NCBI GenBank assembly: GCA_019694435.1
Contig: JAIBBZ010000002.1
Span: 1-64,000 of the forward strand
Length of the DNA stretch: 64,000 bases
Source of the DNA: Pirellulales bacterium
GTDB lineage: Bacteria > Planctomycetota > Planctomycetia > Pirellulales > JAEUIK01
Reading direction: 5' to 3'
Shown: positions 3,001 to 21,904 of the stretch, in pieces
Position numbering within the stretch: the first letter of the stretch is position 1
Layout: every line of letters begins with the position of its first letter
Program-made: the position numbers and the translations under genes
Notes under the pieces: generated by a model
The model's input: the letters and a program-made list of their open reading frames with translations, nothing else
Databases searched by the model: none
What the model was told of the DNA's origin: nothing

Positions 3001-3759
3001 GGCCAGGGCCCAGCGCCAGCGCTCGCCGTCGTTGGCCGCAGCCTCCCAAGTGGCCGGCACGCGGTAGACGACCGGGTTGTCTTCGGCATCGACCGGGGCA
3101 CCTTGGCTGCCGCCGCTCCAGCCGCGGCCCCAGCCGCCTGCAGCTTCGTAGTCGGGCAGCACGGTCAGATCGGTCAGTGTTTGTAGCTTCCATGCGGCGC
3201 CGTAACGATTCGACATTAGCACGTCGGCAACCTGCTTATACAGCGTTGCGATCTCCGTGCGTGCCGGATCGTCAGCGGCCAATTCCAGCGCCTTAACGGC
3301 CAACTGCAACGAGCGCACGCGATCGCGCTCGAAGCAACCGACGAACTCGCCGCGGCCGCGCTGATTGCCGCGAGTAAACTCGTTGGCAATGACCTGCCCA
3401 AAGTGGTCCAACTGCGCGTACAGCTCGGCGGCCGCCGCGAGCAGGCGCCAGTTCTTGGGCTGCGCCGCCAGGCTCTTCTCGATCAGCGCGTCGCATTCAT
3501 CGACGCGGCCGAGATTGCGCAGCGACTGCACGGCCATCCGCAAGTCGTCAGGCACCTGGACCGGGTCGGATTGGGGGTCGGTCGCCAAGGGTTCGTAGAA
3601 GCTCAACGCATCCTGGAAATTGCCGGCGTCGAATTGCTTCCGGGCAGCGTTGCGAGCCTCGTTCCCGCCCGGCGGGGCCGAAAACAACACGGCCGCACCC
3701 GTCACCAGGCATAAGACCGAACCTACACACGCCGCCAGCGCGAGACGTCGCCCGTTCAT
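1..3759 (-). CDS. Alpha-2-macroglobulin-like protein, partial (C-terminus beyond window)
   Basis: Seen: an open frame of 1253 codons from ATG at 3759 running off the left edge without a stop. A purine-rich AAGGA lies about 9 nt before the start. Residues 1-25 form a hydrophobic leader. Residues 35-400 are helix-rich and TPR-like. From about residue 510 come beta-rich macroglobulin (MG) domains, including the hallmark TDRPIYRPDQKVQYKLWVR near residue 650, followed by further MG-type segments. The visible part ends in an Ala/Pro/Met-rich, bait-like segment. Known: bacterial alpha-2-macroglobulins are envelope protease traps; some carry a CxEQ thioester. That region would lie beyond the window, so its presence is unknown. 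The N-terminal TPR-like block is an addition to the E. coli-type architecture. The neighbour at 4225 is transcribed divergently. Family assignment is firm; role in protease defence is inferred. Confidence 0.9.
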   Translation of the reverse strand, partial: MNGRRLALAACVGSVLCLVTGAAVLFSAPPGGNEARNAARKQFDAGNFQDALSFYEPLATDPQSDPVQVPDDLRMAVQSLRNLGRVDECDALIEKSLAAQPKNWRLLAAAAELYAQLDHFGQVIANEFTRGNQRGRGEFVGCFERDRVRSLQLAVKALELAADDPARTEIATLYKQVADVLMSNRYGAAWKLQTLTDLTVLPDYEAAGGWGRGWSGGSQGAPVDAEDNPVVYRVPATWEAAANDGERWRWALAQAVAIDPQRADEVTYTLAMFWHGQFGVQTLADYGYWFGRDQAERAAGGKDGKADDAAEEHDESGTYALHTLADEETICRLAIGVRRIKLDDEFNAIKLLAQLADKRESGYAETALTQLADIFTNRRQYDRAAEYLRRNIAEHGKSEAKQQALAQIVDNWGRFEGQLAQAAGRGATIDYRFRNGRQVHFTAREIKLEALLAAVKQYLKSNPEQLDWQQLDITQLGHRLVIENQAQFLGREVANWTVDLEPRPNHFDARTSVATPLQKAGAYLLTADMQEGNRSHVIVWLHDTALVQKPLSNQHCYFVADATSGAPVPKANVEFFGYRQEHRGGRRFTVLTSNFAEFSDADGLVRPSSKRLDPQYNWLVIARTNQGRLAYLGFQNVWYATRSEARYDSVKTLLITDRPIYRPDQKVQYKLWVRHPRYDEPAESEFAGRSFQLVLTDPQGEKVLTQEVKADAYGGIAGEYALPRDAKLGVWQIYLENVGGGSFRVEEYKKPEYEVTVDAPAEPIRLGDKFTATITARYYFGSPVTEARVKYKVLRTPNADRWFPSGPWDWLYGSGYIWLGSDYDWYPGFTRWGCIRPIPPWWGFRPQQPPEVVVEQEVPIGPDGTVQVEIDSALARAIHGDQDHRYEITAEVVDQSRRTVVGTGSVLAARRPFEVTVWVDRGFSRTGETLRAQFAARTLTGQPVRGTAVLELLRITYNDQQEPVETKVEDWELTSDEGGQGQQQLVAAAPGQYRLSCRVTDAAGHTIEGGYVFVVRGEAFDGRDFRFNELELIPSKREYAPGETLELMINTNRADSTVLLFVRPQDGVYPAPQVVRLHGKSTTVSIPIAVGDMPNFFVEAVTVSGGKLHSEVREIFVPPAARVAQIEVLPSAQEYLPGQEAKVQLKLTDLAGQPFVGSTVLAIYDKAVDAVAGGSNVPEIKQFFWQWRRSHSPTNVTNLGMMYGNLVPKDAVPMQNLGMFGETVVDELMVRRVGRGAGAMDAAVPMAAPAPEA

Positions 3760-4224
3760 CTGACTTGATCCTTGCAGATTGTCCTGATTGGACAAGAAAA
3801 GCTCGGCCGCACGCCCGGCAGCGCGTCCATTGCTTGAATGGGGGCGCGCAGCGACCCCGAGATGCGGATGCAAATAGAGACGCTTGAAACCGGCCGCGCG
3901 TTCCACGGGCCGGCGAACTTCCTTGTCCAGCGTGCATTGTCGAAATTCGGTCCGGCGTCGCAATCTGAGTTTCTGCATCGACTTGCGACAATCGACGCAC
4001 CGCCGATTCGAATCTGTTCCCGGTAGCTTCGGTCCGGCACGCGTGACTATTATGAATAGCGACGTTTCGGTCTTTCGCGGCGCGACCCTCGGGGGGCCAG
4101 GCTGCAGAGACCGCGATCGGTCCCCCGCCTTGCCGCAAGTTGCCTGGGGCTCCCACCCTACGGCAATGCCTGCCTGTTGTATTCACCGCGGCGCGGCCGC
4201 TCACCGTGCTCGAGAGACCTGGTT
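3760..4224. other. Divergent intergenic region between alpha-2-macroglobulin and the multi-N1 protein
   Basis: This stretch of 465 bases separates two divergent genes. Open frames here have no recognisable domain and overlap the flanking genes, so I take them as chance. It should hold both promoters, but I found no convincing -35/-10 pair. The only clear structure is the inverted repeat next to the alpha-2-macroglobulin start. Confidence 0.6.
3779..3795. promoter_or_regulatory. Inverted repeat upstream of the alpha-2-macroglobulin start
   Basis: TTGTCC-TGATT-GGACAA is a perfect 6-bp inverted repeat with a 5-bp spacer, 20-36 bases before the ATG at 3759. It could be an operator or a leader hairpin close to the ribosome binding site. 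No regulator can be named. Confidence 0.3.
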
Positions 4225-7200
4225 ATGTCTGGTACTGCATCGCGTTGCGCATGGTTGGTTGTTGGATTGGCGTTCACGGTTGGCGCAACGACCGAACAGG
4301 TCGCCGGTCAACAGGCGGCCGCTCCACCGGCGAGCCCGCCGGCCGAGCCGGCACCTGCGCCGCCTCCGGTCACGGAGGCCCCTGCCCCGCCGGCGGTGCC
4401 CCTGCCGCAGCGCCTGGTGCGCAGCCTGGTCGAATTGGGCCAGCGCGCCGTGGCCGACCATCTTGATCTCACGCCGGAGCAGCGCCGCCGCGTTTCCGAG
4501 ATTCTCGAGGCCCGAGCCCGCGCGCTCGAAGAGGCCTCGCCGGAAAGCCATCTTGAAATCGAGCGATCGATCGAGGCGCAGCTCGCCGAGATCCTTACCG
4601 ACCAGCAATTGGCCCGCTGGGTGGCCATGACCGAGCCGGCGCCCTCGCCCGAGCAAACCGGTCCCCCCGGCGAGCGCAAGCTGCGATTCAGTTTTCGTTA
4701 CCAGCCGTGGTCCGAAGTGCTGAGTTGGTTTGCCGAGCAGTCGGACTTATCGCTGGTGCTCGATGCGCCGCCGCCGGGCACGTTCAATTACACCGACAGC
4801 CGCCTCTACAGTCCCGCCGAGGCGATCGACCTGCTCAACGGCGTGCTCCTGACGAAGGGGTATACGCTCATTCGCCGCGAACGCATGCTCATGTTGTTAA
4901 AGCTCGACGAGGAGATCCCGGCCGACCTGATTCCCGAGGTGAAGCTGGACGATCTCGACCAGCGCGGCAAGTTCGAACTGGTGACCGTGCGGTTTCCGCT
5001 CCAGGGTCGCGATCCGGCGGCCGTGTCGGGCGAGATCACGCCGCTGTTGGGCCCGCACGGTAAGTGCGTGACGCTGCCGCAGACCAAGCAACTCGTCGTG
5101 ACCGAGACGGCGGGCAAGATGTTGGCGATCTCGGCGGTGATCGAATCGATTCCGCCGCCGGCCGCCCCGAACCCGCCTGAGCAGCCCAAGCAAGAGGAGA
5201 AGCCGACGCTGGTCGTCTATCCGCTCGCCGGCGCCGACGGCGCGGCGGCCGTCAAGACGCTCGAAGCTCTGTTTGCCGCGGGCCGCTTCGTGCACGACCC
5301 CAAAACCGAGCAGATCATGGCCTTCGCCACGCCGTCGCTGCAGGTCGGCATCAAGGAAACGCTGGCCCAGATGCAGGCCGACGAGCCGGTCGAAAAGCAA
5401 TACCGGCTCGAGGTCTATTCGATCGCCTCGAGCGGGTCGCCGCAGCAGTTGCTCGAGATGTTCAAGGCGCTCGTGCCCGACTCGAAGGTTGCGCTCGACC
5501 CCAGCGCCGAACACCTGGCCGTTTGGGCCACGGCGCCGCAGCAGGCGACGATCCGCGAGACGCTGGCCGGCATCGAGGCCGGCGGGCCCGAGGGACAAAC
5601 CCGTCGCGTCGAGGTCTACCGCGTCGAAGAGGCCGACCTCGCGACGATCCTGGCGACGCTGCAGACGTTAATGCCCAAGGCCAAGCTCGCGCTCGATCGC
5701 AAGGCCGGTGCCATCGTGGCCCTGGCCTTGCCGGACGAGCACGAAACAATCCGCGCGACGATTTCCCAGATCGAAGTTCCGCCGGCCGCAGGCGACGTGC
5801 CGCGGTTCGAGACGTATGCCGTTACGCCCGAGCAGCGCGAACGCGTCACCAAGGCTCTGGCGGACATGGCCGCCGAACTGCCGGGTATTCAGGTGCTGGG
5901 CACCGCGACGCCGGGTGAGCTGCGCGTTCGGGCCCGCGCGAAACAGCACGAGCTGATCGCCGCGGTGGTCGAGCAATTGGCCCAAGAGGTGCCCGAGGCC
6001 TTGCGTCCGCAACTCGTCGTCTACCGTCTGCAGTACATCGACGCCGCGCCGGTTGTCACGGCGCTGGCGGCGCTGGTGCCCTCGGCCAAGGTGGTCGTCG
6101 AGGCGAAGACCAACCAGTTGCTGATCTGGGCCGCGGCCGCGGATCAGGAAAAGGTGCGCTCGACGGTCGATCAACTCGATGTCGACTTGCCCCCGACGCG
6201 GCGGCTGCAATTGCAGGTGCATCCGCTGGGTCAGGCCGAGCTCTCGACCGTGACCCAGGTGTTGGCCGTCGTCGCGCCTGAGGCCAAGCTGATCAGCAAC
6301 ACGACCGCCGGCACGATCATCATCCTCGCCCGCGCCGACGATCAGCTCCGCGTCAAAGAAACCATCGAGGGCCTGCAGCCGGCGCTCGACGATCCGAACC
6401 GGCCGCGGATCGAAGTCTATAACGTCCGCAACAGCGACCCGAGTTCGCTCGCCTCGGCCTTGACGGGCGCGTTTCCCAAGGCCCGCATTACGGCCGACAC
6501 GGTCGGCAAACGCTTGATTGTCTATGCCACGCCTGACGAGCAGGCGACGTTGCGGCCGACGATCGAACAATTGCAGCAACCGTTGCGCGGGGCGGACCAG
6601 CCGAAGCTTGTTTCCTATCCGGTAGGTACGGCCGATCTGTCGGCCACGATGACCCTGTTGCAGCAGGCGTTCGTCGATGCCCGGTTTGCGGCCGACACGA
6701 AGTCGAACGCCGTGGTCGTGTGGGCGGCCGACGACGTGCACACGCGCATCGGCGAAATGATGACCCGGCTGGCCACCGACCTGCCGGAACAGTTTCGCAA
6801 GTCGACCCGCGCCTATCGCTTCGAGTCGGCCGATCCGGCCACGGCGATGACCGTGCTGCGCGGCTTGCAGCCGTACACGCCCATGGCCGTCGATCCACGG
6901 TCCGGCAGCTTGATGGTCACGGCGACGGGCCAGGAGCATGTCCAGATTGCCGAGGCCGTGGCGGCGATCGAACAGCAAAGCGCCGGTGGCGGCAAGCCCG
7001 AGGTCCGGGTCTATCCGGTGCGCGCCACCGATCCGTCGACTTTGCTGGCCGCGCTGCAGCAGATGTATGCCTCGCGCGCCGACGTGCGGCTGTCGCTCGA
7101 TACGAAGTCGCAAAAGATTGTCGCCTGGGCTGGCGCTGCCGAGCAGGCCAACATCGCCGCCGCGATCGAGCAAATCGATCAAACCGCCGACAATCAACAA

Positions 7201-9453
7201 ACGCTGGCCGTGTATCCGCTCGACGGCGCCGACCCGACTTCGGCCGTGACGCTGCTGCAAGGTGCGATGGCCGACGCGCGGTTCGTGGCCGACACGAAGA
7301 CCGAGACGATCTTGGCCTGGGCCCGCGCCGAACAGCATCCGCGGATCACCGAACTGGTGAAACAACTGGCCCGCGATGTCCCGCCCAACAAGCGTCGCAC
7401 GTCGCGCGTTTATCCGCTCGCGCACGGCGACCCGGCGGTCGCTTTGCAGGTGATTCAGCCGTTGGTGCCATTGGCCCGGATGGCGGTCGATTTGCGCAAC
7501 CGGCAACTGGCCGTGTCGGCCACTTCCGAGGAGCACGAGGAAATTGCCACCGCGATTTCCGAGCTCGACCGCGAAGGGGCCGTGCGCGAAGAACGTACGG
7601 TGCGCGTGTACGAACTGCACGAGGGCGATCCGGCCAGCCTGCTGACCGTGTTGCAACAGATGTTCGCCACGGCGCCCGAGGTACGGCTCTCGCTCGACGG
7701 CAAGTCGCACAAGATCATCGCCTGGGCGTTTCCCGGCCAGCACGAGGAGATCCGGCGGACGCTTGATCAACTCGAAACGCCCGCCGACCTGGCCCAGGCC
7801 CGTCAGGTCGAGGTCTACCAAACCGGCGAAGCCGACGCGGCCGCGCTGCTCAAGGTCGTGACCAACCTCTTGGGCACCGCCACCGACGCGCGAATCGTGC
7901 CCGACGAGACCAACAACCAGTTGATCGTCTTTGCGCGGCCCAGCGAACACGCCACGATCCGCGCCACGCTCGCACAAATGAGCACCGTCACGCCGGTTGT
8001 CGACGTGTTGCCGCTGCGCGTGATCGATCCGTATACGGCCGAATTCGCCATCGAGGAGCTGTTCGAATCGCGCGGATCGGCCGGCAAGGGCCGCGCGCCC
8101 AAGGTCGAGGCCGATTACGATTCGCAGCAGTTGATGGTCCGCGGTACCCCCGAGCAAGTGGCCGAGATCCGCAAGCTGCTGGCGAAGATGGGCGAACCGC
8201 TGTTGGCTGACAGCACGTCGAACGGGCGCAAACTACGCGTCATCGCCATCCCCAAGGGGGCGGGTAAGTCCACCCTCGAACAGCTGCAACAACTCTGGCC
8301 GCAGATTTCGCGCAACCCGATTCGCGTGGTCACGCCGTCGGCCGTGGCCCCCACCGTCGAATCGCTGCGCAAAGAGCGCGAGGCCGACCAGCAACCGCCG
8401 GCGAGCGACCCAGACCCCGCGAACAAGCACGGCGCCTGGCAGCCGCGCCGGCTGCGCACGGCCGACCCGCTTGAAAATGCCCTCGCCTGCGCCTTCCCCG
8501 GCGATGAGCCGCCGCCCGTTGCGGACGACACCGCGGAGCCAGCACCCGCCGAAGCGACGCCGACCGAAGCGGCTCCCTCCGACACGAATCCGGCGGAGTC
8601 CGCCGAGCCCAGTTCCGATGAGCCCACGGAAACCGGCGCGTCGCCAGCCGACGCGCCGCCGCCGGTGGTGATCACCGTCGGGCCGGACAGTATCACGATC
8701 GCTTCGGACGACGAGGCGGCGCTCGATCAGCTCGAGACCGTGCTGCGTTCGCTGGCCGCGCGGGCCCCGTCGACCGGCCGCGAGTTCACCGTGTTCACGC
8801 TCAAAAATGCCAGCGCCAACAGCGTGGCCGACAGCATCGACCGGCTGTTTGCCTCGGGCTTTTTCGGCTTTCGCGCCAGCGGCGTGACCGTGGTGCCCGA
8901 CCAGCGGCTCAACGCGATCATCGTGCAGGCTTCGGCCACTGAGCTGGCGACGATTGAAGAACTGCTCAAGGTACTCGACACCGACGAGGTGCCCGCCTCG
9001 GCCCAGGCGCAACGTCCGCGAGTGCTCAAAGTGCACGACGCCGACGCCGAAGACGTCGAGGCCGTGCTGCGCGATGTCTACAAGACGCAACTCACGCCCC
9101 GGCCCCAGCCTGCGCAACGCGGCGGCGGTGGCGGCGGCGGTCCGCGCGGTGGTCGCGGCGAGTTGGCCGAATATGTCCAGTATCGGATGGCCGTCGACAC
9201 GGCCCTGCCCGACATGACGTTGAGCGTCGATCCGACGACCAATTCGCTGGTGGTCCTGGCCCCGGAAAGCCTGTTCCGCGAGGTCGAGGCGCTGGTCAAG
9301 CAGCTCGACACGGCGGCGCTCCAATCGGATCGCACGATCAAGGTCGTGCAGCTCAAGAGCGCCAAGGGCATCGCCGTGCAAAAGGTGCTCGAAGACATCC
9401 TCCGCGACCGCAACCGCGGCCGCGGGCGCAGCCGACAGAGCTCGGGTAACTAG
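4225..9453 (+). CDS. Giant secretin-N1-repeat protein, GspD-like but without secretin barrel
   Basis: 1742 residues. I chose ATG 4225 because it directly precedes a signal peptide (residues 1-25); an earlier in-frame start would add 16 polar residues. Residues 26-57 are Pro/Ala-rich. Residues 152-230 resemble an N0/STN domain. From about 247 to 1330 there are some 16 consecutive units of about 70 residues with the pattern VYPL..aDp..ll..l..l.p.a.l..D.....ivawA..e.h..I...i..l, which matches the secretin N1 (Secretin_N) fold. An acidic Pro-rich linker follows (about 1375-1475), then two or three more units, one with a Gly-rich loop near 1631-1645. The protein then ends in a basic, Ser/Arg-rich tail. 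Known: GspD/PilQ secretins have 2-4 N domains followed by an outer-membrane beta-barrel. No barrel is seen here. Likely a periplasmic scaffold or ring of the T2SS-like system encoded from 12350; that role is inferred. Confidence 0.82.
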   Translation: MSGTASRCAWLVVGLAFTVGATTEQVAGQQAAAPPASPPAEPAPAPPPVTEAPAPPAVPLPQRLVRSLVELGQRAVADHLDLTPEQRRRVSEILEARARALEEASPESHLEIERSIEAQLAEILTDQQLARWVAMTEPAPSPEQTGPPGERKLRFSFRYQPWSEVLSWFAEQSDLSLVLDAPPPGTFNYTDSRLYSPAEAIDLLNGVLLTKGYTLIRRERMLMLLKLDEEIPADLIPEVKLDDLDQRGKFELVTVRFPLQGRDPAAVSGEITPLLGPHGKCVTLPQTKQLVVTETAGKMLAISAVIESIPPPAAPNPPEQPKQEEKPTLVVYPLAGADGAAAVKTLEALFAAGRFVHDPKTEQIMAFATPSLQVGIKETLAQMQADEPVEKQYRLEVYSIASSGSPQQLLEMFKALVPDSKVALDPSAEHLAVWATAPQQATIRETLAGIEAGGPEGQTRRVEVYRVEEADLATILATLQTLMPKAKLALDRKAGAIVALALPDEHETIRATISQIEVPPAAGDVPRFETYAVTPEQRERVTKALADMAAELPGIQVLGTATPGELRVRARAKQHELIAAVVEQLAQEVPEALRPQLVVYRLQYIDAAPVVTALAALVPSAKVVVEAKTNQLLIWAAAADQEKVRSTVDQLDVDLPPTRRLQLQVHPLGQAELSTVTQVLAVVAPEAKLISNTTAGTIIILARADDQLRVKETIEGLQPALDDPNRPRIEVYNVRNSDPSSLASALTGAFPKARITADTVGKRLIVYATPDEQATLRPTIEQLQQPLRGADQPKLVSYPVGTADLSATMTLLQQAFVDARFAADTKSNAVVVWAADDVHTRIGEMMTRLATDLPEQFRKSTRAYRFESADPATAMTVLRGLQPYTPMAVDPRSGSLMVTATGQEHVQIAEAVAAIEQQSAGGGKPEVRVYPVRATDPSTLLAALQQMYASRADVRLSLDTKSQKIVAWAGAAEQANIAAAIEQIDQTADNQQTLAVYPLDGADPTSAVTLLQGAMADARFVADTKTETILAWARAEQHPRITELVKQLARDVPPNKRRTSRVYPLAHGDPAVALQVIQPLVPLARMAVDLRNRQLAVSATSEEHEEIATAISELDREGAVREERTVRVYELHEGDPASLLTVLQQMFATAPEVRLSLDGKSHKIIAWAFPGQHEEIRRTLDQLETPADLAQARQVEVYQTGEADAAALLKVVTNLLGTATDARIVPDETNNQLIVFARPSEHATIRATLAQMSTVTPVVDVLPLRVIDPYTAEFAIEELFESRGSAGKGRAPKVEADYDSQQLMVRGTPEQVAEIRKLLAKMGEPLLADSTSNGRKLRVIAIPKGAGKSTLEQLQQLWPQISRNPIRVVTPSAVAPTVESLRKEREADQQPPASDPDPANKHGAWQPRRLRTADPLENALACAFPGDEPPPVADDTAEPAPAEATPTEAAPSDTNPAESAEPSSDEPTETGASPADAPPPVVITVGPDSITIASDDEAALDQLETVLRSLAARAPSTGREFTVFTLKNASANSVADSIDRLFASGFFGFRASGVTVVPDQRLNAIIVQASATELATIEELLKVLDTDEVPASAQAQRPRVLKVHDADAEDVEAVLRDVYKTQLTPRPQPAQRGGGGGGGPRGGRGELAEYVQYRMAVDTALPDMTLSVDPTTNSLVVLAPESLFREVEALVKQLDTAALQSDRTIKVVQLKSAKGIAVQKVLEDILRDRNRGRGRSRQSSGN

Positions 9454-12349: not shown

Positions 12350-14041
<1,692 letters not shown>

Positions 14042-14064: not shown

Positions 14065-15273
14065 ATGCCCGATTTTGCCTACACAGCCCGACGCGTCTCC
14101 GGCGAGCAGGTCAACGGCACGATTGCCGCCAGCACCGAGCGCGAGGCCCTGGCGCTATTGGGCGAGCGCGAGCTGTTTCCGCTACAGATCACCCGCGAGC
14201 AGCCAGCCTCGCAATCGTGGCGCGGTCGCAAGGCGGTGAAGCCCCAACTGCTGGCCACCACGCTGGCGCAACTGGCCGACCTGCTGACGAGCGGGGTGCC
14301 GCTGCTGCGCTCGCTCGAGGTGCTGGCCAAGCAATCGTCGCACCCGACGCTCGGCGAGGTGTTGTCGGACATTCGCGATCGCGTCGCCGAGGGCTCGACG
14401 CTCGACGACGCCTTTGCCCGCCATCCCGACGTGTTCAACGAGCTGGTGGTGAGCATGGTGCGCGCCGGCAGCGAAGGCGGTTTTCTCGAAGACGTGCTCC
14501 AGCGGACCGCGCAGTTCATCGAACACCAGGAAGACCTCAAGGGCCGGGTGATCGGTGCGGCGACGTATCCCATGTTGCTGGCCATCGCCGGCACGGCGGC
14601 CGTCACGGTGTTGATCGTGTTTTTCGTGCCCAAGTTCGCCGAGTTGTTTGCCCGGCTGAAAGAACAGGGCGAGCTGCCCGGTCTGACCATCGCCCTGCTG
14701 TGGCTGAGCGACACGCTTGGCCACTACGGGCTGATCATCGTCGCGGTCTTGGCCGGGGCGATCTACGGACTGCGGCGCTACGTCGCCACGCCCGAGGGGC
14801 GCACACGCTTCGATCAGCTCCGGCTGAAGGTGCCCTTGGTGGGCGCGATTTACGTCAACCTGGCCGTGTCGCGGTTTTGCCGGGTGCTCGGCACCTTGCT
14901 GCGCAATGGCGTGTCGATTCTGCGGGCCCTGGAGATCAGCAGCGATTCGACCGGCAACAAGGTGCTGTCCGAAAAGATCCGCCGCGCCGGCGACAGCATC
15001 ACGGCCGGCGAGCGCCTGTCGACGCCGCTGGCCGAGGGCGGGCTGTTTCCCCGGGCTGTGGTGGAAATGATCAGCGTGGCCGAGGAATCGAACAACTTGG
15101 AAAAGGTGCTGGTCGACATCGCCGACGGGATCGACCGCCGCACCGAGCGCCAGCTCGACCTGATGGTGCGGCTGATCGAGCCGGCGATGTTGTTGATCAT
15201 GGCCGTGATCATCTTGTGTGTCGTGGTGGCTTTGTTGCTGCCCGTGTTCCAGATGAGCACGACGATGGGTTGA
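14065..15273 (+). CDS. gspF: Type II secretion inner-membrane platform protein GspF
   Basis: 402 residues from ATG 14065; the same frame is open further upstream but only inside gspE. The N-terminus (FAYTARRVSGEQVNGTI) is the standard GspF opening. Two T2SSF domains are present, each followed by membrane helices: about 168-192 and 212-232 after the first, and a C-terminal helix near 372-397 after the second. The conserved LLxxGVPLLRSLEVLAKQ and LLRNGVSILRALEI segments mark the two repeats. Known: polytopic platform that couples GspE to the pseudopilus. An 87-base gap to gspG includes a T-tract and a ribosome site AAAGGTG. Confidence 0.94.
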   Translation: MPDFAYTARRVSGEQVNGTIAASTEREALALLGERELFPLQITREQPASQSWRGRKAVKPQLLATTLAQLADLLTSGVPLLRSLEVLAKQSSHPTLGEVLSDIRDRVAEGSTLDDAFARHPDVFNELVVSMVRAGSEGGFLEDVLQRTAQFIEHQEDLKGRVIGAATYPMLLAIAGTAAVTVLIVFFVPKFAELFARLKEQGELPGLTIALLWLSDTLGHYGLIIVAVLAGAIYGLRRYVATPEGRTRFDQLRLKVPLVGAIYVNLAVSRFCRVLGTLLRNGVSILRALEISSDSTGNKVLSEKIRRAGDSITAGERLSTPLAEGGLFPRAVVEMISVAEESNNLEKVLVDIADGIDRRTERQLDLMVRLIEPAMLLIMAVIILCVVVALLLPVFQMSTTMG

Positions 15274-15360
15274 GGTCGGAAGTCAAGCGTGCCGCGGCGC
15301 GGGGTGTCGCGCGGCGGGCACTCGGTTGAGTTTCACGTTTTTTTGAGAAAGGTGACTGTC

Positions 15361-15834
15361 ATGTACAACGCGATTCGCCATCGCCGGCGACGGGCCGGCT
15401 TCACGCTGATGGAGCTACTCTTGGTGATGGCCATCCTGGTGATCCTGCTGGGCCTCGTCGCCCCGCGGTTCATGAACACGCAGGCCAAGGCCAACATCAA
15501 CGCCGCCAAGAGCCAGATCGGCTTGTTCAAGACGCCGTTGGAGATGTACTTCCAGAACATGAACGCCTATCCCACGACCGAGCAGGGCCTGTTGGCCATC
15601 GCCGAGGCGCCGGCCGACCTCGAGAACAAGGACAAATGGGACGGGCCCTACATCGACGGCGGTATTCCCAAGGATCCGTGGGGACACGACTACCAGTACC
15701 GCTATCCGGCTGAGAAGAACAAAAACGATTTCCCGGACATCTGGTCGCTCGGTCCCGACGGCGAAGACGGCTCGGACGACGACATCGGCAACTGGCCCGC
15801 CGACGTCGAGGGCGAAACGACCGAGGCCACCTGA
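15361..15834 (+). CDS. gspG: Major pseudopilin GspG
   Basis: 157 residues. A short basic leader ends in the type III prepilin site RAG-FTLMELLLVMAILVIL, with Phe+1 and Glu+5, followed by the long hydrophobic helix. The C-terminal half has the GspG signatures YPTTEQGLLAI and DPWGHDYQYRYP. Its end, SLGPDGEDGSDDDIGNW, matches the calcium-binding loop of T2SS major pseudopilins. Known: polymerises into the periplasmic pseudopilus after processing by prepilin peptidase; no such peptidase gene is in this window. An AAAGGTG element precedes the start by about 8 bases, stronger than the overlapping starts downstream, as expected for the most abundant subunit. Confidence 0.96.
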   Translation: MYNAIRHRRRRAGFTLMELLLVMAILVILLGLVAPRFMNTQAKANINAAKSQIGLFKTPLEMYFQNMNAYPTTEQGLLAIAEAPADLENKDKWDGPYIDGGIPKDPWGHDYQYRYPAEKNKNDFPDIWSLGPDGEDGSDDDIGNWPADVEGETTEAT

Positions 15835-15846
15835 GGCTCGATCCGC

Positions 15847-16542
15847 ATGACGGCGTCGTTGGGCCACGGCGCGAGGTCCGCCAAGCGCGGCTTCACGCTG
15901 ATGGAAATGCTGCTGGTGCTGGGGCTCCTGGTCGTTTTGGCGGCCGTGAGCTGGCCGGCGCTGCGCGGACCCATTGCCAACAGCCGCCTGCGCGACGCCG
16001 CGGCGCAGTTGCGCAACAACCTCGCCCGAGCACGGCTCGCCGCACTCAACGCGGGGCGCGATCACGTGGTGTGTTTCGCCCCCGGCGGGCAGCGCTATGC
16101 GATTGCACCGCACGACGGCGTCGGCGCCGCCGCGGCGTTTGCGACGGGCGAGGAAACGGCCTTGCAATACGACGACGCACCCGAGCGCGGGCAACGCGAC
16201 GAAGCGGCGACGCCGGCCAGCACCCTGGTCGAGTTGGAGCTGCCCGAGGGAGTTCATTTCGCCGCACGAGACCTGGCCCAATCGTACGGCCGAGAATCCG
16301 CTGCGGGCACGTCGCCGGCAGCCTGGACCGATGGAACGACCGGTGAGGCCTCGGAAGGCGAGTCGGCCGGAGCCGAACGGTCTCTCGAAGCGGAGCAGAT
16401 CGTGTTTCATCCCGACGGCTCGTGCAGCGACGCGACCATCCGCCTGAACAACGAGCGGCGCTTCGCCATCACGGTGCAACTGCGCGGTTTGACCGCCGTG
16501 GCGACCGTGGGACCGCTCGAACGCGACGAGGTGGAGCCATGA
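15847..16542 (+). CDS. gspH: Minor pseudopilin GspH-like
   Basis: 231 residues with a prepilin leader KRG-FTLMEMLLVLGLLVVLAAV (Glu+5 present) and the early helix pattern SRLRDAAAQLRNNLARARLAALNAGRDHVVCF, typical of GspH/FimT proteins. The C-terminal domain is longer and more acidic than in enterobacterial GspH (about 170-190 residues), with an Ala/Glu-rich insertion around residues 95-180 before the final beta strands. It starts 12 bases after gspG. Its stop overlaps the next start (ATGA), implying translational coupling. Likely sits near the pseudopilus tip. Confidence 0.88.
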   Translation: MTASLGHGARSAKRGFTLMEMLLVLGLLVVLAAVSWPALRGPIANSRLRDAAAQLRNNLARARLAALNAGRDHVVCFAPGGQRYAIAPHDGVGAAAAFATGEETALQYDDAPERGQRDEAATPASTLVELELPEGVHFAARDLAQSYGRESAAGTSPAAWTDGTTGEASEGESAGAERSLEAEQIVFHPDGSCSDATIRLNNERRFAITVQLRGLTAVATVGPLERDEVEP

Positions 16543-16982
16543 CCCGTACCGCGCGCGGCGGCTTCTCGCTGTTGGAGATGATGCTGGCGATGACCATTCT
16601 GCTCGGGTCGATCGCCGTGCTGGGCGAATTGGCCAGCCTCGGTCGCCGCAACGCGGCGCAAGCGGCGGCGCTGACCCGGGCCGAGTTGCTGTGCGAGAGC
16701 CTCATGGCCGAAATCGCCGCCTCGGGCACGCTGCCCGAGACGGTCGAAGAGCAACCGATTCCGGAGCAGCAGGGCTGGTTGTATTCGGTGCGCCGCGAAC
16801 CGCTCGAACAGCCGGGCATTGTCTCGGTGCGCATCTCGGTGGCGCAAGACCTGCCCAAGGAACGGCGGCCCGTCCGCTTTGCACTCGTACGCTGGCTACC
16901 CGAGCCTGCTTCGCGATCGGGTTCGACGCCGAACGGCTCGTCCAGTGGTTCGTCGGTGGCGCCTGCTGGAGGCACGCAATGA
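16539..16982 (+). CDS. gspI: Minor pseudopilin GspI-like
   Basis: 147 residues. Prepilin site RGG-FSLLEMMLAMTILLGSIAVL with Glu+5, then the helix segment RRNAAQAAALTRAELLCESLMAEI that resembles GspI (AxxLAxxxAxxxLxExxA). A small beta domain follows (GWLYSVRREPL), and a Ser/Gly-rich tail. Both ends overlap neighbours by four bases (ATGA). Known: GspI, GspJ and GspK form the tip complex that primes pseudopilus assembly. Assignment to I rather than another minor pseudopilin rests on gene order and helix pattern. Confidence 0.86.
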   Translation: MTRTARGGFSLLEMMLAMTILLGSIAVLGELASLGRRNAAQAAALTRAELLCESLMAEIAASGTLPETVEEQPIPEQQGWLYSVRREPLEQPGIVSVRISVAQDLPKERRPVRFALVRWLPEPASRSGSTPNGSSSGSSVAPAGGTQ

Positions 16983-17914
16983 ACCGACCGCGCGCCTTCA
17001 CACTGATCGAGTTGCTGCTGGCCATGGTCTTGTCGACTGTGGTGTTGGCCGGGTTGTGGACCGCCATGCGCGTCCATGTGCGGATGTTCCAAGGCGGGCA
17101 CCGCGAGGTGGAAGAAGCGCAGTTGGCTCGGGCCCTGTTCCATCGGATCGCCAGCGATCTGCGCGGCACGATCGCGCCCTTGGCGACGGCGAGTCCTGCG
17201 TCGTCGTCTTCCTCAGCCGCGCCGTCGGGTCCCGCGCGGCTACGCGGGACTGCGCGGTGGCTGCAGTGCGAAGTTGAATCGGCCGACACGCGCGTCTCGC
17301 CGCAGATCGTCACTTACTATGTGCGCGACGAACAGATGGCCACCGGCCGCGCGACGAGCGGCGGCGAGCCGAGCGCGGACGACTTGGGCCTGGTGCGCCG
17401 CGAACTGAGTGCGACCTATCGCGATCAACTGGCTGCCCAAGGTCGCCGTGGCGGCGCTCAGACCGCGGCCGCCTCGAACGATTTGCCGCCGTCGCTGCCG
17501 GTGCGGCAGTCCGAGGAAACCGAGGGGCCGTCGCCCGAGGTTTTGCTCGCACCCGAAGTGCGGCAGCTCGAATTCCGCTATTTCGACGGCGCCAGTTGGC
17601 ACGATCAATGGGACAGCGTCGCCGAGGGCGGATTGCCTAGCCTGGTTGCGGTGGCGATCGCGCTCGAACCGCCCCCGGCAAAAGCGTCGTCCGTTGCGGC
17701 GACCGCCGGCGCCGCGCCGGATTCGACCGACGACCTTCCCGACTCGCGGCGCGAATCCTTGTTTACCGAATCGCTCCAGCCGCGGCAGTTCGCCGTGTAT
17801 CGCATGAATGTGACGCTCGCCGCGGCGCGGCCGGCGCAGTCGTCGTCCGCATCGGGCACGGCAACGTCCTCGCCCTCAGCGGCCGCGCCGACGAACGCGG
17901 GAGGCATGCCATGA
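16979..17914 (+). CDS. gspJ: Minor pseudopilin GspJ-like
   Basis: 311 residues. The prepilin site PRA-FTLIELLLAMVLSTVVLAGLW has Glu+5. The domain contains the GspJ-like segments EEAQLARALFHRIASDLRG and VRQLEFRYFDGASWHDQWDS. It is about 100 residues longer than enterobacterial GspJ because of Ser/Ala-rich low-complexity loops near residues 70-85 and 235-260 and a Ser/Ala-rich tail. Translationally coupled to gspI and gspK through ATGA overlaps. Confidence 0.88.
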   Translation: MNRPRAFTLIELLLAMVLSTVVLAGLWTAMRVHVRMFQGGHREVEEAQLARALFHRIASDLRGTIAPLATASPASSSSSAAPSGPARLRGTARWLQCEVESADTRVSPQIVTYYVRDEQMATGRATSGGEPSADDLGLVRRELSATYRDQLAAQGRRGGAQTAAASNDLPPSLPVRQSEETEGPSPEVLLAPEVRQLEFRYFDGASWHDQWDSVAEGGLPSLVAVAIALEPPPAKASSVAATAGAAPDSTDDLPDSRRESLFTESLQPRQFAVYRMNVTLAAARPAQSSSASGTATSSPSAAAPTNAGGMP

Positions 17915-19509
17915 ACCTCTCCCGCCGCATGCGATTGGGCCCACCAGGCCCGCGCGGGCTGGTGCTCGTGCTGGTCTTGGTCGTGGTGGCGATGTTGAGC
18001 CTGGCCGGCTTTTCTTTTACCGACCTGATGGTTACCGAAGTCAAGGCCACGCGCAGCGTAGGGCACGAGCTGCAGGCCCGGCAATTGCTGGCCTCGGGAG
18101 CGACTTACCTGCAATCGCTCGTGGCGCTGCGCCCGGAAGAGCTGGAGCAATTCGGCGGTCTCGAAGACAACCCCGCACGGCTGCGTGCGGTCGAAGTCTT
18201 CCGCGACGAGCGTACGGGCCTCACCGGGAGGTTCACCGTGCTCGCGCCGCCCGATCCGTCGTCGAGCGCCAGCGCGACCGAATCGACCGCCGCGCCGCGC
18301 TATGGCATGGCGGACGAGTCGGCCAAGCTGAATCTCGCCGCGCTGGTCGAATGGGACCACGCACAAGCCGGCGCGGGACGCAAGGCGCTCATGAACCTGC
18401 CGGGCATGACGACCGCGGCCGCCGACGCGCTGCTCGACTGGTGCGACGCCGACAGCAATCCACGGGAACAAGGCGCGGAGGTCGACTATTACTCAGGGCT
18501 CGAGCCCGGCTACGGCCCGCGCAACGGTCCCCTCGACACGCTCGCCGAGTTGTTGTTGGTGCGCGACGTGACGCCCGAGTCGTTGTTCGGCCGCGATGCC
18601 AATCGCAATGGCGTCCTGGACGAGGCGGAATTGACCGTTGCCGAGCCGACAGCCGGCGATCGCGCGACGACAAGCGAAGCGGGCACCGCTCCGCGCGGCT
18701 GGTCTACGTGGATCACGCTGCATAGCGCCGAGGCAATGACAGACGGTCAGGGGAATCCCCGCATCCAGCTCAACGGCGATCTCAAGCAGTTGCACGAGGC
18801 GCTCGCCAAGCGGTTCAACCAGGCGATCGCGGATTTCGCGGTCCTCTATCGCCAGTACGGCCCCGCCACGAGTTCGCCGAAGCCGGGCCAGATCTCGCAG
18901 GTCGACCTGTCGCAGCCGGCACGGTTCAACTTCAGTTCGATCTTCGACCTGGCCGGTGCCAAGGTTGTCGTCCAGAAGCCTGGCGAAGCGAACGGCGTGC
19001 TCGTCGACAGCCCCCTGGGCACGGCGACCGACGCCTTGCGAGGCTGGCTGCCGGATTGGCTCGACGCTGTCATGCTCGCGGCCGCGCCCCGCGTGGGCCG
19101 CGTAAACGTGAATCGCGCCTCGCGCGAAGTGCTGCTCGGCGTGCCGGGGCTGGAAGCCACGGAGGCCGACGCCCTGATCGCGAAGCGCGAAGGCCAAACC
19201 TCGGGCCAACGCGGTGATCGGGCCCGGCAGACGGCGGCCTGGCTGGTCACCGAAGGCATCGTGCCATTCGACAAGTTCCGCAAGTTGAACGACTATGTAA
19301 CGGGGGCCGGGGCGGTGTTTCGCACCCAGCTCATCGCCTTTTTTGATGAAGTGCCGCTGACCCTGCGGGCCGAGGTCGTGCTCGACGCGACGCAAACGCC
19401 GGCCCGGGTGGTGAGCTGGCAAGATTTTCAACGCCTCGGACAGGCGTACGAAGCCGCGGTGATTCGCGGCGAGGAGGACCGGAGCCATGCCGCGTTATCT
19501 GGCCGTTGA
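17911..19509 (+). CDS. gspK: Minor pseudopilin GspK-like
   Basis: 532 residues. The N-terminal hydrophobic segment (GLVLVLVLVVVAMLSLAGFSF) follows a basic leader. As is usual for GspK, the conserved Glu+5 is absent. The helix continues with TRSVGHELQARQLLASGATYLQSL. Helical segments include GMTTAAADALLDWCDADSNP and the later GVPGLEATEADALIAKR, a helix-hairpin-helix-like motif seen in GspK. It is longer than the E. coli protein (about 330). It overlaps gspJ by four bases and the next gene by 23. Known: the tip subunit that crowns the GspI-GspJ-GspK complex. Confidence 0.87.
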   Translation: MNLSRRMRLGPPGPRGLVLVLVLVVVAMLSLAGFSFTDLMVTEVKATRSVGHELQARQLLASGATYLQSLVALRPEELEQFGGLEDNPARLRAVEVFRDERTGLTGRFTVLAPPDPSSSASATESTAAPRYGMADESAKLNLAALVEWDHAQAGAGRKALMNLPGMTTAAADALLDWCDADSNPREQGAEVDYYSGLEPGYGPRNGPLDTLAELLLVRDVTPESLFGRDANRNGVLDEAELTVAEPTAGDRATTSEAGTAPRGWSTWITLHSAEAMTDGQGNPRIQLNGDLKQLHEALAKRFNQAIADFAVLYRQYGPATSSPKPGQISQVDLSQPARFNFSSIFDLAGAKVVVQKPGEANGVLVDSPLGTATDALRGWLPDWLDAVMLAAAPRVGRVNVNRASREVLLGVPGLEATEADALIAKREGQTSGQRGDRARQTAAWLVTEGIVPFDKFRKLNDYVTGAGAVFRTQLIAFFDEVPLTLRAEVVLDATQTPARVVSWQDFQRLGQAYEAAVIRGEEDRSHAALSGR

Positions 19510-21013
19510 ATGGGAATCGCGTCAAGCGCGGTTTCTCGTCGCTCAAGCATCCGGCGGGCGGGTGCAGATCGAGGCCTGCGGCTCGGTTACGACCGACGCG
19601 CCCGAGGCGGGCGTGCGCGGGCCGCACCCTGAATTGGGCCAGCGCCTGGCCGAGGCGCTCGACGAGCGGCGCGTACCGCGCAGCCTGCGCCGCAGGGCGC
19701 TGGTGGCGGTGAGCCGCGCGCAGGTCGACTTGCGGCAACTGACCCTGCCGCCGGCCAGCGATGCCGAACTGCCCGATCTGGTGCGGCTGCAGGCCGTGCG
19801 CGAGTTGTCGGCGGCGTCGGATTCGGCGCGGGTCGACTTCTATCCGCTGTCCACAGATCCGAGCGAACCGCGCGCGGTCCTGGCGACGGCCTTTTCGGCC
19901 GAAAGCCAGCAAGCGGCGCAGCTCGTCTGGAACCCGGCGGGTTTGGTGCCCGATCGATTGTTGCTGCGTCCGTTTGCGGCAGCCTCGTTGTTCCTGCGCC
20001 GCGGGCTGGGCACCGACAAGGTTTGCCTGCTGGTCGACGTGTTGTGCGACGAAGCCGACATGACGGTGATCCAGAACGGCCGCGTGGTCGTGTCGCGGTG
20101 CCTGCGGTTGCCGGCCGAAGACGACGACCCCGTGCCGCTCTTGGCCGAGATTCGCCGCACGATCCTGGCCGTGGCCAATCAGGGCGCGGCGCAGACCGTC
20201 GACGCGGTCTACGTGTTCGGCGATACGGCCGAGCAACAAGACCTGATCGACCGGCTCCGCGACAATCTCGAACAGCCGGTCGAATGCTGCGATCCGTTCG
20301 ACGAATGCGAGCTCGAGTCGCATGCGTTTGCTGATAGGGACGAGCGGCGCGGCCCCTACGCGGCATTGGTCGGCACGGTCTTCGACGCCGCCGAACGCAC
20401 GAGCGCAGGCATCGACTTCCTGCACCCGCGCCGCGCCCCCAAGCCTCCCAGCCGCCGGCGCCGAGTGGCGCTCGTGGGCGCCTTGGTCGGCTTTGCGGCG
20501 CTGTTCGTGGGCGTGAACATTTGGAGCCGGTTCGACGAACTCAACGACCAGATCGCCATGGCAGCGAAGCAGTCGAAAGAACTCGATAAGGCCGTCAAAC
20601 GGGCCGCCGAGGTCGAGGCCACCGTCGCCGCGATCGAGGCCTGGACCGCCGGCGACGTCACCTGGCTCGACGAACTCAACGATTTGTCGAACCGCTTTCC
20701 CAAGGCCCGCGACGCGGTCATGCTGCGGCTGACGATGAGCCGGGCCCCGGCCGGCGGCGGCACGATGGACATCGAGGGCCTGGTGCGGCATCCGCAGATC
20801 ATCGAGCGGATGGAGACCAGCCTCCGCGACGAGTTCCACGAGGTTCGCAGCAAGCGCGTGCAAGAGAGCGTGCAGGACAAGGCCTACACCTGGCAGTTCG
20901 AATCGTCGTTGTCGGTCGCGCGGCGCGATCGCGACGAATTTCTCGCCGCCGCTCGCCCGGCCACTGCGCCGCCGGCGGCCGAGGTGACCACCGCCCGACG
21001 CGAGGAGCCCTGA
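19487..21013 (+). CDS. PilM/GspL-type actin-fold protein fused to a PilN-like domain
   Basis: 508 residues. The start at 19487 lies inside the end of gspK and is preceded by GAGGAGG. Residues 1-290 resemble a PilM/GspL cytoplasmic ASKHA fold (start MPRYLAVEWESRQARFLVA; VSRAQVDLRQLTLPP; LLVDVLCDEADMTVIQNGR). A basic region and a single membrane helix at about 328-346 (RVALVGALVGFAALFVGV) precede a coiled-coil and a small periplasmic domain of PilN/GspL type. Known: GspL recruits GspE to the membrane; in type IV pili the same job is split between PilM and PilN. This single chain therefore matches GspL architecture with PilM/PilN-like sequence. The membership is clear; the exact label is a matter of naming. 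Confidence 0.82.
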   Translation: MPRYLAVEWESRQARFLVAQASGGRVQIEACGSVTTDAPEAGVRGPHPELGQRLAEALDERRVPRSLRRRALVAVSRAQVDLRQLTLPPASDAELPDLVRLQAVRELSAASDSARVDFYPLSTDPSEPRAVLATAFSAESQQAAQLVWNPAGLVPDRLLLRPFAAASLFLRRGLGTDKVCLLVDVLCDEADMTVIQNGRVVVSRCLRLPAEDDDPVPLLAEIRRTILAVANQGAAQTVDAVYVFGDTAEQQDLIDRLRDNLEQPVECCDPFDECELESHAFADRDERRGPYAALVGTVFDAAERTSAGIDFLHPRRAPKPPSRRRRVALVGALVGFAALFVGVNIWSRFDELNDQIAMAAKQSKELDKAVKRAAEVEATVAAIEAWTAGDVTWLDELNDLSNRFPKARDAVMLRLTMSRAPAGGGTMDIEGLVRHPQIIERMETSLRDEFHEVRSKRVQESVQDKAYTWQFESSLSVARRDRDEFLAAARPATAPPAAEVTTARREEP

Positions 21014-21016
21014 ACC

Positions 21017-21904
21017 ATGCAAAAGCGCGAAAAAATCCTGGCGGGGCTCGTCGGGGTGACGCTCCTGGTGGCCGTCGGCCCGTCGGTCTTCGACACCGTG
21101 CTCCAGCAGCCGCTCGACCAGCGCCGCGACAAGATCGCCAAGCTCGAAAACGACATCGCCAAAAAAACGCGGTTGATCGATCGCGCCAAAGCGGCCAACC
21201 GGCGCTTGCAGGCCTGGGAAGAACAGTCGCTGCCGACCGATACGGCCCGAGCCCGATCGGCGTATCAGAACTGGCTCTTGGAGCTGGTCGAGAACGCGGG
21301 CTTTGGACGGCCCAACGTCGACTCGGGCGAGATCGTCAACAAGCCGGGCACCTATGCCAAGATTCCGTTTACCGTTCGCGCGCAAGGCACGCTCGAGCAG
21401 CTCACGCGGTTCTTGCACGCCTTTTACAGCGCCGATCACTTGCACCAGATCCAACGGCTGGGCATCATGCCCATCTCGCATTCGAACGACCTGGAGTTGT
21501 CGCTGGCGATCGAGGCGCTGGTGCTGCCGGGCGGCAGCCGCAAGGAGCAGCTCAACCGCAAGCCGTCGAACCGTCTGGTCGGTACGACGATGGACGACTA
21601 CGAGCCCATCCTGCGGCGCAACCTGTTCGGCGAGGGCGGCGCCAGCTCGTTCGACGCGGCCGACTATGCCTTTTTGACGGCCATTCTCGACGTCAATGGC
21701 GCGCCCGAGGCCTGGCTCACCTTGCGCACCACGGGCGAAGTGCTCAAGCTGCACGAAGGCGACGAGTTCGAGGTCGGCCAGTTCCGCGGCCGCATCGCCG
21801 AGGTGCTGTCGCAGGATATCGTCGTCAAGTCGGACGACGAGCGCTGGCTGTTGACGCTCGGCGAAAACCTCAGCCAGGCCACGGCCCTGCCGCCGGAATT
21901 TTAG
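21017..21904 (+). CDS. PilO/GspM-like protein with a GspC-like C-terminal domain
   Basis: 295 residues, starting 4 bases after the previous stop with GAGGAG as ribosome site. Membrane helix at about 8-28, then a coiled-coil (LENDIAKKTRLIDRAKAANRRLQAWEEQ) and a ferredoxin-like domain with the PilO/GspM pattern VRAQGTLEQLTRFLHAFY. From about residue 195, RRNLFGEGG is followed by a compact beta domain (LTAILDVNGAPEAWL...VLKLHEGDEFEVGQFRGRI...LTLGENL). This resembles the NLFG plus homology-region domain of GspC. Known: GspM partners GspL, and GspC links the inner membrane to secretin N0. The fusion would place both in one chain. It is the last gene of the operon. Confidence 0.75.
   Translation: MQKREKILAGLVGVTLLVAVGPSVFDTVLQQPLDQRRDKIAKLENDIAKKTRLIDRAKAANRRLQAWEEQSLPTDTARARSAYQNWLLELVENAGFGRPNVDSGEIVNKPGTYAKIPFTVRAQGTLEQLTRFLHAFYSADHLHQIQRLGIMPISHSNDLELSLAIEALVLPGGSRKEQLNRKPSNRLVGTTMDDYEPILRRNLFGEGGASSFDAADYAFLTAILDVNGAPEAWLTLRTTGEVLKLHEGDEFEVGQFRGRIAEVLSQDIVVKSDDERWLLTLGENLSQATALPPEF

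Follow-up and report, generated by a model that had tools for sequence, protein, structure and literature searches.

A long, barrel-less array of predicted secretin N domains linked to the type II secretion system in Pirellulales

Ahead of a type II secretion system (T2SS) operon, the window analysed here, which is a stretch of 64,000 nucleotides from a Pirellulales bacterium, encodes a protein of 1742 residues (positions 4225-9453, plus strand) that contains a long series of secretin N-type domains. The locus raises the question of what such an array could contribute to secretion and where the corresponding outer-membrane barrel is encoded. The reading frame is open throughout and conserved across the order, and the long minus-strand reading frames in the array region reflect overlap in GC-rich DNA, which together rule out a pseudogene or an antisense artefact.

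The protein consists of one GspD-type N0 domain, nineteen N1-type secretin domains, a half-N1 and a basic tail (Table 1), and we refer to it below as the array protein. The Pfam family Secretin_N (PF03958) matched it with an E-value of 1.3e-111 over 12-14 separate stretches, and a hidden Markov model (HMM) of the repeat unit located array units with a median spacing of 66 residues (range 64-69). These E-values and the conservation across the order argue that the array is not a chance observation. Consistent with the first-pass annotation, which had described about 16 consecutive N1-like units and no barrel, the unit HMM counted 16, and a Pfam search of the protein for the Secretin barrel (PF00263) gave no match. 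A barrel hidden in the C-terminal part is ruled out by Pfam searches of 26 homologs and by the AlphaFold2 (AF2) model of residues 1185-1742. The same annotation had placed a linker and two or three further units behind the array; more units do follow, but the supposed linker is a split 17th N1, interrupted by a disordered, acidic and proline-rich insert of ~90 residues (about 1388-1480) that AF2 modelled with low confidence. The protein is also not made of N1 domains only, as the annotation had overlooked the N0 domain, which is joined to the first N1 by a conserved linker of ~25 residues. The basic Ser/Arg-rich tail that it reported is present and comes after the conserved half-N1; in most of 24 aligned family C-termini, a half-N1 recurs with a tail that is Gly/Arg/Ser-rich or basic. 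The last 20 residues of the array protein have a net charge of +3, and a transmembrane anchor is absent. Ahead of N0, positions 4408-4635 encode two LTxxQ motifs with a likeness to Spy/CpxP-type periplasmic proteins, for which the Pfam match is weak (PF07813, LTXXQ, E 0.085, below the cut-off).

Table 1. Features of the window and giant one-piece secretins of other planctomycete classes. Positions are in nucleotides and residues are those of the array protein; for the giants, the locus precedes the positions.
Feature	Position	Strand	Basis
Signal peptide, probable Sec, residues 1-28 (MSGTASRCAWLVVGLAFTVGATTEQVAG)	4225..4308	+	Translation read by eye, without predictor
Ala/Pro-rich linker, then charged segment with two LTxxQ motifs, residues 29-137	4309..4635	+	Translation
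N0 domain, residues 145-232	4657..4920	+	Conserved through the order; AF2 pLDDT mostly >90; match to GspD N0 (4jtm)
First N1, residues 255-312	4987..5160	+	Unit HMM; AF2
15 N1-like units with 66-residue period, residues 329-1325	5209..8199	+	Unit HMM; AF2 beta-alpha-beta-beta-alpha
Three-unit block 9-11, residues 795-986, source or copy of next block	6607..7182	+	Identities
Three-unit block 12-14, residues 994-1186, duplicate of 9-11	7204..7782	+	Identities
Split 17th N1, residues 1337-1513	8233..8763	+	AF2: strand-helix-strand, low-pLDDT stretch, strand-strand-helix
N1 domain, residues 1521-1587	8785..8985	+	Best Pfam Secretin_N stretch; unit HMM
N1 with internal Gly/Arg-rich insert, residues 1599-1696	9019..9312	+	Unit HMM; AF2
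Terminal half-N1 (beta1-alpha1, about 1707-1732) and basic Arg/Ser tail	9343..9450	+	Alignment of C-termini; AF2 helix
EF-hand protein, hydrophobic N-terminal segment	10788..11909	-	PF13202 E 3.2e-12; synteny
gspE, T2SS ATPase	12350..14041	+	PF00437 1.3e-133; TIGR02533 9.2e-186, just under cut-off
gspF (start approximate)	14065..15273	+	TIGR02120 1.9e-102, below cut-off
gspG, major pseudopilin	15289..15834	+	TIGR01710 1.3e-37, above cut-off
gspH-like pseudopilin	15847..16542	+	TIGR01708 2.3e-10, below cut-off; PF12019 just above cut-off
gspI-like pseudopilin, probable	16422..16982	+	Prepilin motif at cut-off; weak GspI/XpsI matches
gspJ-like pseudopilin (start approximate)	16970..17914	+	PF11612 4.9e-05, below cut-off; prepilin motif above cut-off
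gspK	17911..19509	+	PF21687 1e-15, above cut-off; NF037980 1.7e-21
gspL/PilM-like	19487..21013	+	PF11104 1.9e-08
gspM-like	21017..21904	+	NF040576 4e-10, below cut-off
Giant one-piece secretin	L124:307-15525	+	
Giant one-piece secretin	L125:2127-16628	-	
Giant one-piece secretin	L126:336-14597	+	
Giant one-piece secretin	L127:5067-18968	-	
Giant one-piece secretin	L128:2685-16532	+	
Giant one-piece secretin	L079:7083-19733	+	

AF2 modelled residues 135-665 with a pLDDT of 87 as a single N0 fold followed by beta-alpha-beta-beta-alpha repeats, and residues 1185-1742 with a pLDDT of 72, the insert and tail being of low confidence. Confidence between domains was low (pTM 0.43 and 0.30 for the two models), and the orientation of the units is not confidently predicted. 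The top Foldseek matches of these models were XcpQ N0-N1-N2 (E 1.3e-9), PulD and GspD. Alignment to PulD with VIA-align yielded a Z of 14.3 with a large overall rmsd, which indicates that the match holds domain by domain, and the N0 domain matched that of GspD (4jtm) with a Z of 11.4 and an rmsd of 2.0 A over 80 residues. The family profile also matched solved T2SS GspD chains among PDB sequences (best E 1.5e-10), whereas a phmmer search of the same sequences with the 1742-residue sequence alone found no match. As modelled, the domains of the array protein are secretin N0 and N1 folds, which bears out the earlier proposal that the repeats are N1-like.

The identities between units indicate how the array grew. 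The closest pairs are 11/14 (47% identical), 9/12 (46%) and 10/13 (40%), whereas array units are on average 29% identical to one another, which indicates that units 9-11 were copied as a block to 12-14 and agrees with the stepwise duplication previously proposed with units 11 and 14 as the example. Across species, units 1, 16, 17 and 18 have orthologues at the corresponding positions, and the inner units mostly do not. Variable inner units between conserved ends would be expected of a spacer that adjusts its length and has specialised ends.

The T2SS core components E, F, G, K, L and M and a GspD barrel are present in the genome of the array protein, several of them recognised by weak or below-cut-off matches. 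A search of this genome for GspC (PF11356), for which E. coli and Caulobacter served as positive controls and which a very divergent GspC could escape, gave no match. The EF-hand gene sits between the array gene and gspE in many Pirellulales, and its product is possibly a calcium-binding T2SS accessory or a substitute for GspC. On the other side of the array gene, positions 1-3978 (minus strand) encode a neighbour of >1300 residues that runs off the window and reads as alpha-2-macroglobulin-like, with no confident family match.

Barrel-less N0-N1 proteins occur in many Pirellulales, including Aeoliella straminimaris and Thermogutta/Thermoguttaceae bins, in bins labelled Planctomycetaceae or Planctomicrobium, and in another family of the class, denoted f21. 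Among 26 full-length members, Pfam detected Secretin_N in all and Secretin in none. Their length is variable: proteins in the sampled loci mostly have 6 detected N1 domains (range 4-7), and those in the long-array clade, which holds the window protein and in which several genes are cut by contig ends, have from 14 to 47 or more. We examined co-occurrence with GspK in 148 Pirellulales genomes of at least 90% completeness. The N0-N1 model matched in 95 genomes and GspK in 96; both were found in 94 and neither in 51, and of the remaining three genomes one encodes the N0-N1 protein without GspK and two encode GspK without the N0-N1 protein (Fisher P 4e-36, which ignores kinship among genomes). Furthermore, T2SS genes lie in the same stretch as the barrel-less gene in 18 loci, and this gene is often the first of the gspE-M operon; in two loci (L083 and L094), it is followed 4-105 nt on by gspE and then by gspF, G, (H), J, K, L, M and GspD. 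That the array protein belongs to the T2SS is well supported by this co-occurrence and linkage. Some barrel-less paralogs have no T2SS gene within the stretch read. One genome (G025, L047:1366-13816) encodes two barrel-less ring proteins (1104 and 1351 residues) and a GspD (1403 residues) in a row, others contain 2-4 paralogs without a barrel, and in G380 the model matched nine times. A long-array barrel-less protein from another class (G213, L082:4403-10753, minus strand) is nested among Pirellulaceae in the tree, for which transfer or a misbinned contig is a possible explanation.

The barrel, which the first-pass annotation had suggested is encoded elsewhere, lies on another contig (C1:485470), within a GspD of 1242 residues that has eight Secretin_N stretches and a barrel and is without N0. 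This GspD is 53% identical to the one encoded beside gspM in genome G005. In 19 Pirellulales-side loci, the T2SS GspDs have 6-8 detected N1 domains and a barrel, with N0 undetected, and in many cases the first N1 starts within ~60 residues of the open-frame start, which leaves too little room for an N0 after the signal peptide. The two proteins do not complement each other so strictly everywhere, since GspD in family f21 keeps N0 beside a barrel-less N0 protein. This retention, together with a tree that parts barrel-less from one-piece N0 sequences and in which the f21 GspD rows are partial, long-branched and unsurely placed, does not support simple fission of GspD as the only origin. Because N0 is retained there, a duplication after which GspD lost its N0 is a more probable origin than a single clean fission.

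Other planctomycete classes encode a T2SS with either an ordinary GspD (N0, 3 N1 and barrel; 700-820 residues) or a giant one-piece GspD of 4217-5073 residues, in which N0, 43-51 N1 domains and a barrel share one chain encoded beside gspF/G/K/L/M. In the two giants searched with Pfam, Secretin was detected together with 44 Secretin_N stretches in one and 41 in the other. Long N1 arrays thus do occur in line with a barrel. The giants form a separate clade in the tree and have a repeat period of ~77 residues, compared with 66 in the window protein, which indicates that long arrays arose at least twice.

Based on these findings, we consider it moderately probable that the array protein is an N-module that has become detached from the T2SS secretin and grown larger, and that extends the GspD channel through the periplasm by stacked rings. 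The separate GspD would provide the outer-membrane barrel, and the window protein would add N0 and ~19 N1 domains that oligomerise into stacked N1 rings continuing the channel. The N0 end would face the inner-membrane platform of GspE/F/L/M and the C-terminal units would meet GspD, with interchangeable inner units that set the length and end units that are specialised. If each ring measures ~2.5-3 nm, as we estimate, a stack of twenty would lengthen the channel by about 50-60 nm, and the added rings may bridge a wide periplasm. Strong genomic support for a spacer comes from the GspD on another contig, the tracking with the T2SS, the place in the operon and the one-piece giants. The channel-extension reading is weakened by the failure to find the N0 partner GspC, by the lack of a membrane anchor, by the low AF2 confidence between domains, by the N0 that GspD keeps in family f21, by the two GspK-encoding genomes without a detectable member and by the paralogs without a T2SS gene. 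In addition, nineteen rings would amount to tens of nanometres, longer than any solved secretin that we know of, which counts against it. Lacking a barrel, the array protein is by definition not a secretin, but it very probably belongs to the T2SS and functions there in the manner of a secretin N-module.

Several of these observations could also be explained without stacked rings. The array could be a monomeric or low-copy periplasmic tether, in which a bead-string of N1 domains joins GspD to the platform and replaces GspC. GspC had a match in only 3 of the 148 Pirellulales genomes (above the cut-off in two) and was undetected in 145, although GspK was found in 96, and in Klebsiella the distance from the platform to the secretin is bridged by PulC (PMC6882859), both of which fit a tether, as do AF2 models without fixed geometry between units. 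We nevertheless judge a tether unlikely, because the units are regularly spaced, the array protein has no transmembrane anchor, its N0 is a part of secretins and not of GspC, and the one-piece giants have the same kind of array in a chain with the barrel. To our knowledge, the barrel oligomerises in all known secretins, which also counts against a tether. We give still less credence to a separate tube or cage round the pseudopilus that works with the T2SS and is not stacked on GspD. Such a structure would suit family f21, in which both proteins keep N0 and each could own an inner-membrane-facing end, and the ability of several barrel-less paralogs to share one genome; it accords poorly with the Pirellulales-side division, in which the barrel-less protein has the N0 that GspD is without, and with the fusion of array and barrel in the giants.

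Two further explanations appear very improbable. The 16 consecutive N1 units of the window protein are near the 15-fold symmetry of secretins, which could suggest that ~15 side-by-side units of a single chain make up a whole ring, but the counts across proteins (4-7, 14, 16, 21, 25-27, 31-36 and 47 or more) include no multiple of 15, and barrel-fused arrays have 43-51 units per chain. Just as improbable in our view is a protein with reused N1 domains that plays a structural part in the envelope or at the surface and is not specific to the T2SS, which the paralogs lacking a nearby T2SS gene would favour; the near-perfect co-occurrence with GspK and the repeated position as first gene of the gspE-M operon argue against it.

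If the channel-extension reading is correct, the T2SS channel of bacteria is not always a four-ring secretin of a single polypeptide, and planctomycetes have split this channel or raised its number of rings about ten times, at least twice independently. The means by which secretion machinery gets across a periplasm of large and varying width would then become testable. The planctomycete periplasm is variable and sometimes greatly enlarged, with crateriform 'press stud' connections (PMC5394234), and the tubes would supply molecular candidates for these connections, the components of which are not described in the papers that we found. A broader proposal is that planctomycete T2SSs form tubes across the periplasm from ~10 to 50 stacked N rings, made from two polypeptides or one giant, with the number of rings serving as an evolving molecular ruler, and that these tubes may be the crateriform structures; we regard this as rather doubtful, and the association of ring tubes with structures that pin the outer to the inner membrane is speculation.

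In our literature search, outside the scope of which subscription journals and preprints mostly lay, barrel-less or giant planctomycete secretins were undescribed, and the pore of the bacterial T2SS is described as an oligomer of a single polypeptide in a 2023 review (PMC10128026). The nearest precedents for the array protein are the split GspD/GspDN of mitochondria and the six-ring PilQ of Thermus. A further close system is the N0-N1-N2-N3 module of GspD (PulD, XcpQ), which shares with the array protein the N0 and N1 folds, the order of N0 to N1, the ~25-residue linker and the T2SS context. In contrast to this module, the array protein is without a barrel and encoded apart from the barrel protein, has ~19 N1 domains instead of 3, and contains a disordered insert and a Gly/Arg-rich or basic tail. 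In Klebsiella, the four-ring secretin and the PulC domains attached to it extend ~20 nm into the periplasm (PMC6882859). In Thermus thermophilus, PilQ has six rings, which were called unusual and said to span a wide periplasm (PMC5745081), and extra N rings are likewise explained by periplasm width; PilQ, however, is one polypeptide with its barrel, has six rings rather than ~20, and serves a type IV pilus and DNA uptake instead of a T2SS. A free N0-like domain is already known from Legionella DotD, for which a periplasmic ring was proposed (PMC2951367), but DotD is a single-domain lipoprotein of a type IVB system without an N1 array. Separation of barrel and N domains is likewise known, from the mitochondrial T2SS, in which a truncated GspD barrel and GspDN1-GspDN3 are separate polypeptides and a GspD-GspDN1 interaction is indicated by yeast two-hybrid (PMC8134430). 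The mitochondrial GspDN proteins are eukaryotic, with single or half N domains and without N0, whereas the array protein is bacterial and has N0 and a long array. Both share Secretin_N homology, half-N domains, a missing GspC and the separation of N domains from the barrel (PMC8134430), and the array protein would, if our reading holds, represent a bacterial counterpart of the split mitochondrial GspD/GspDN.
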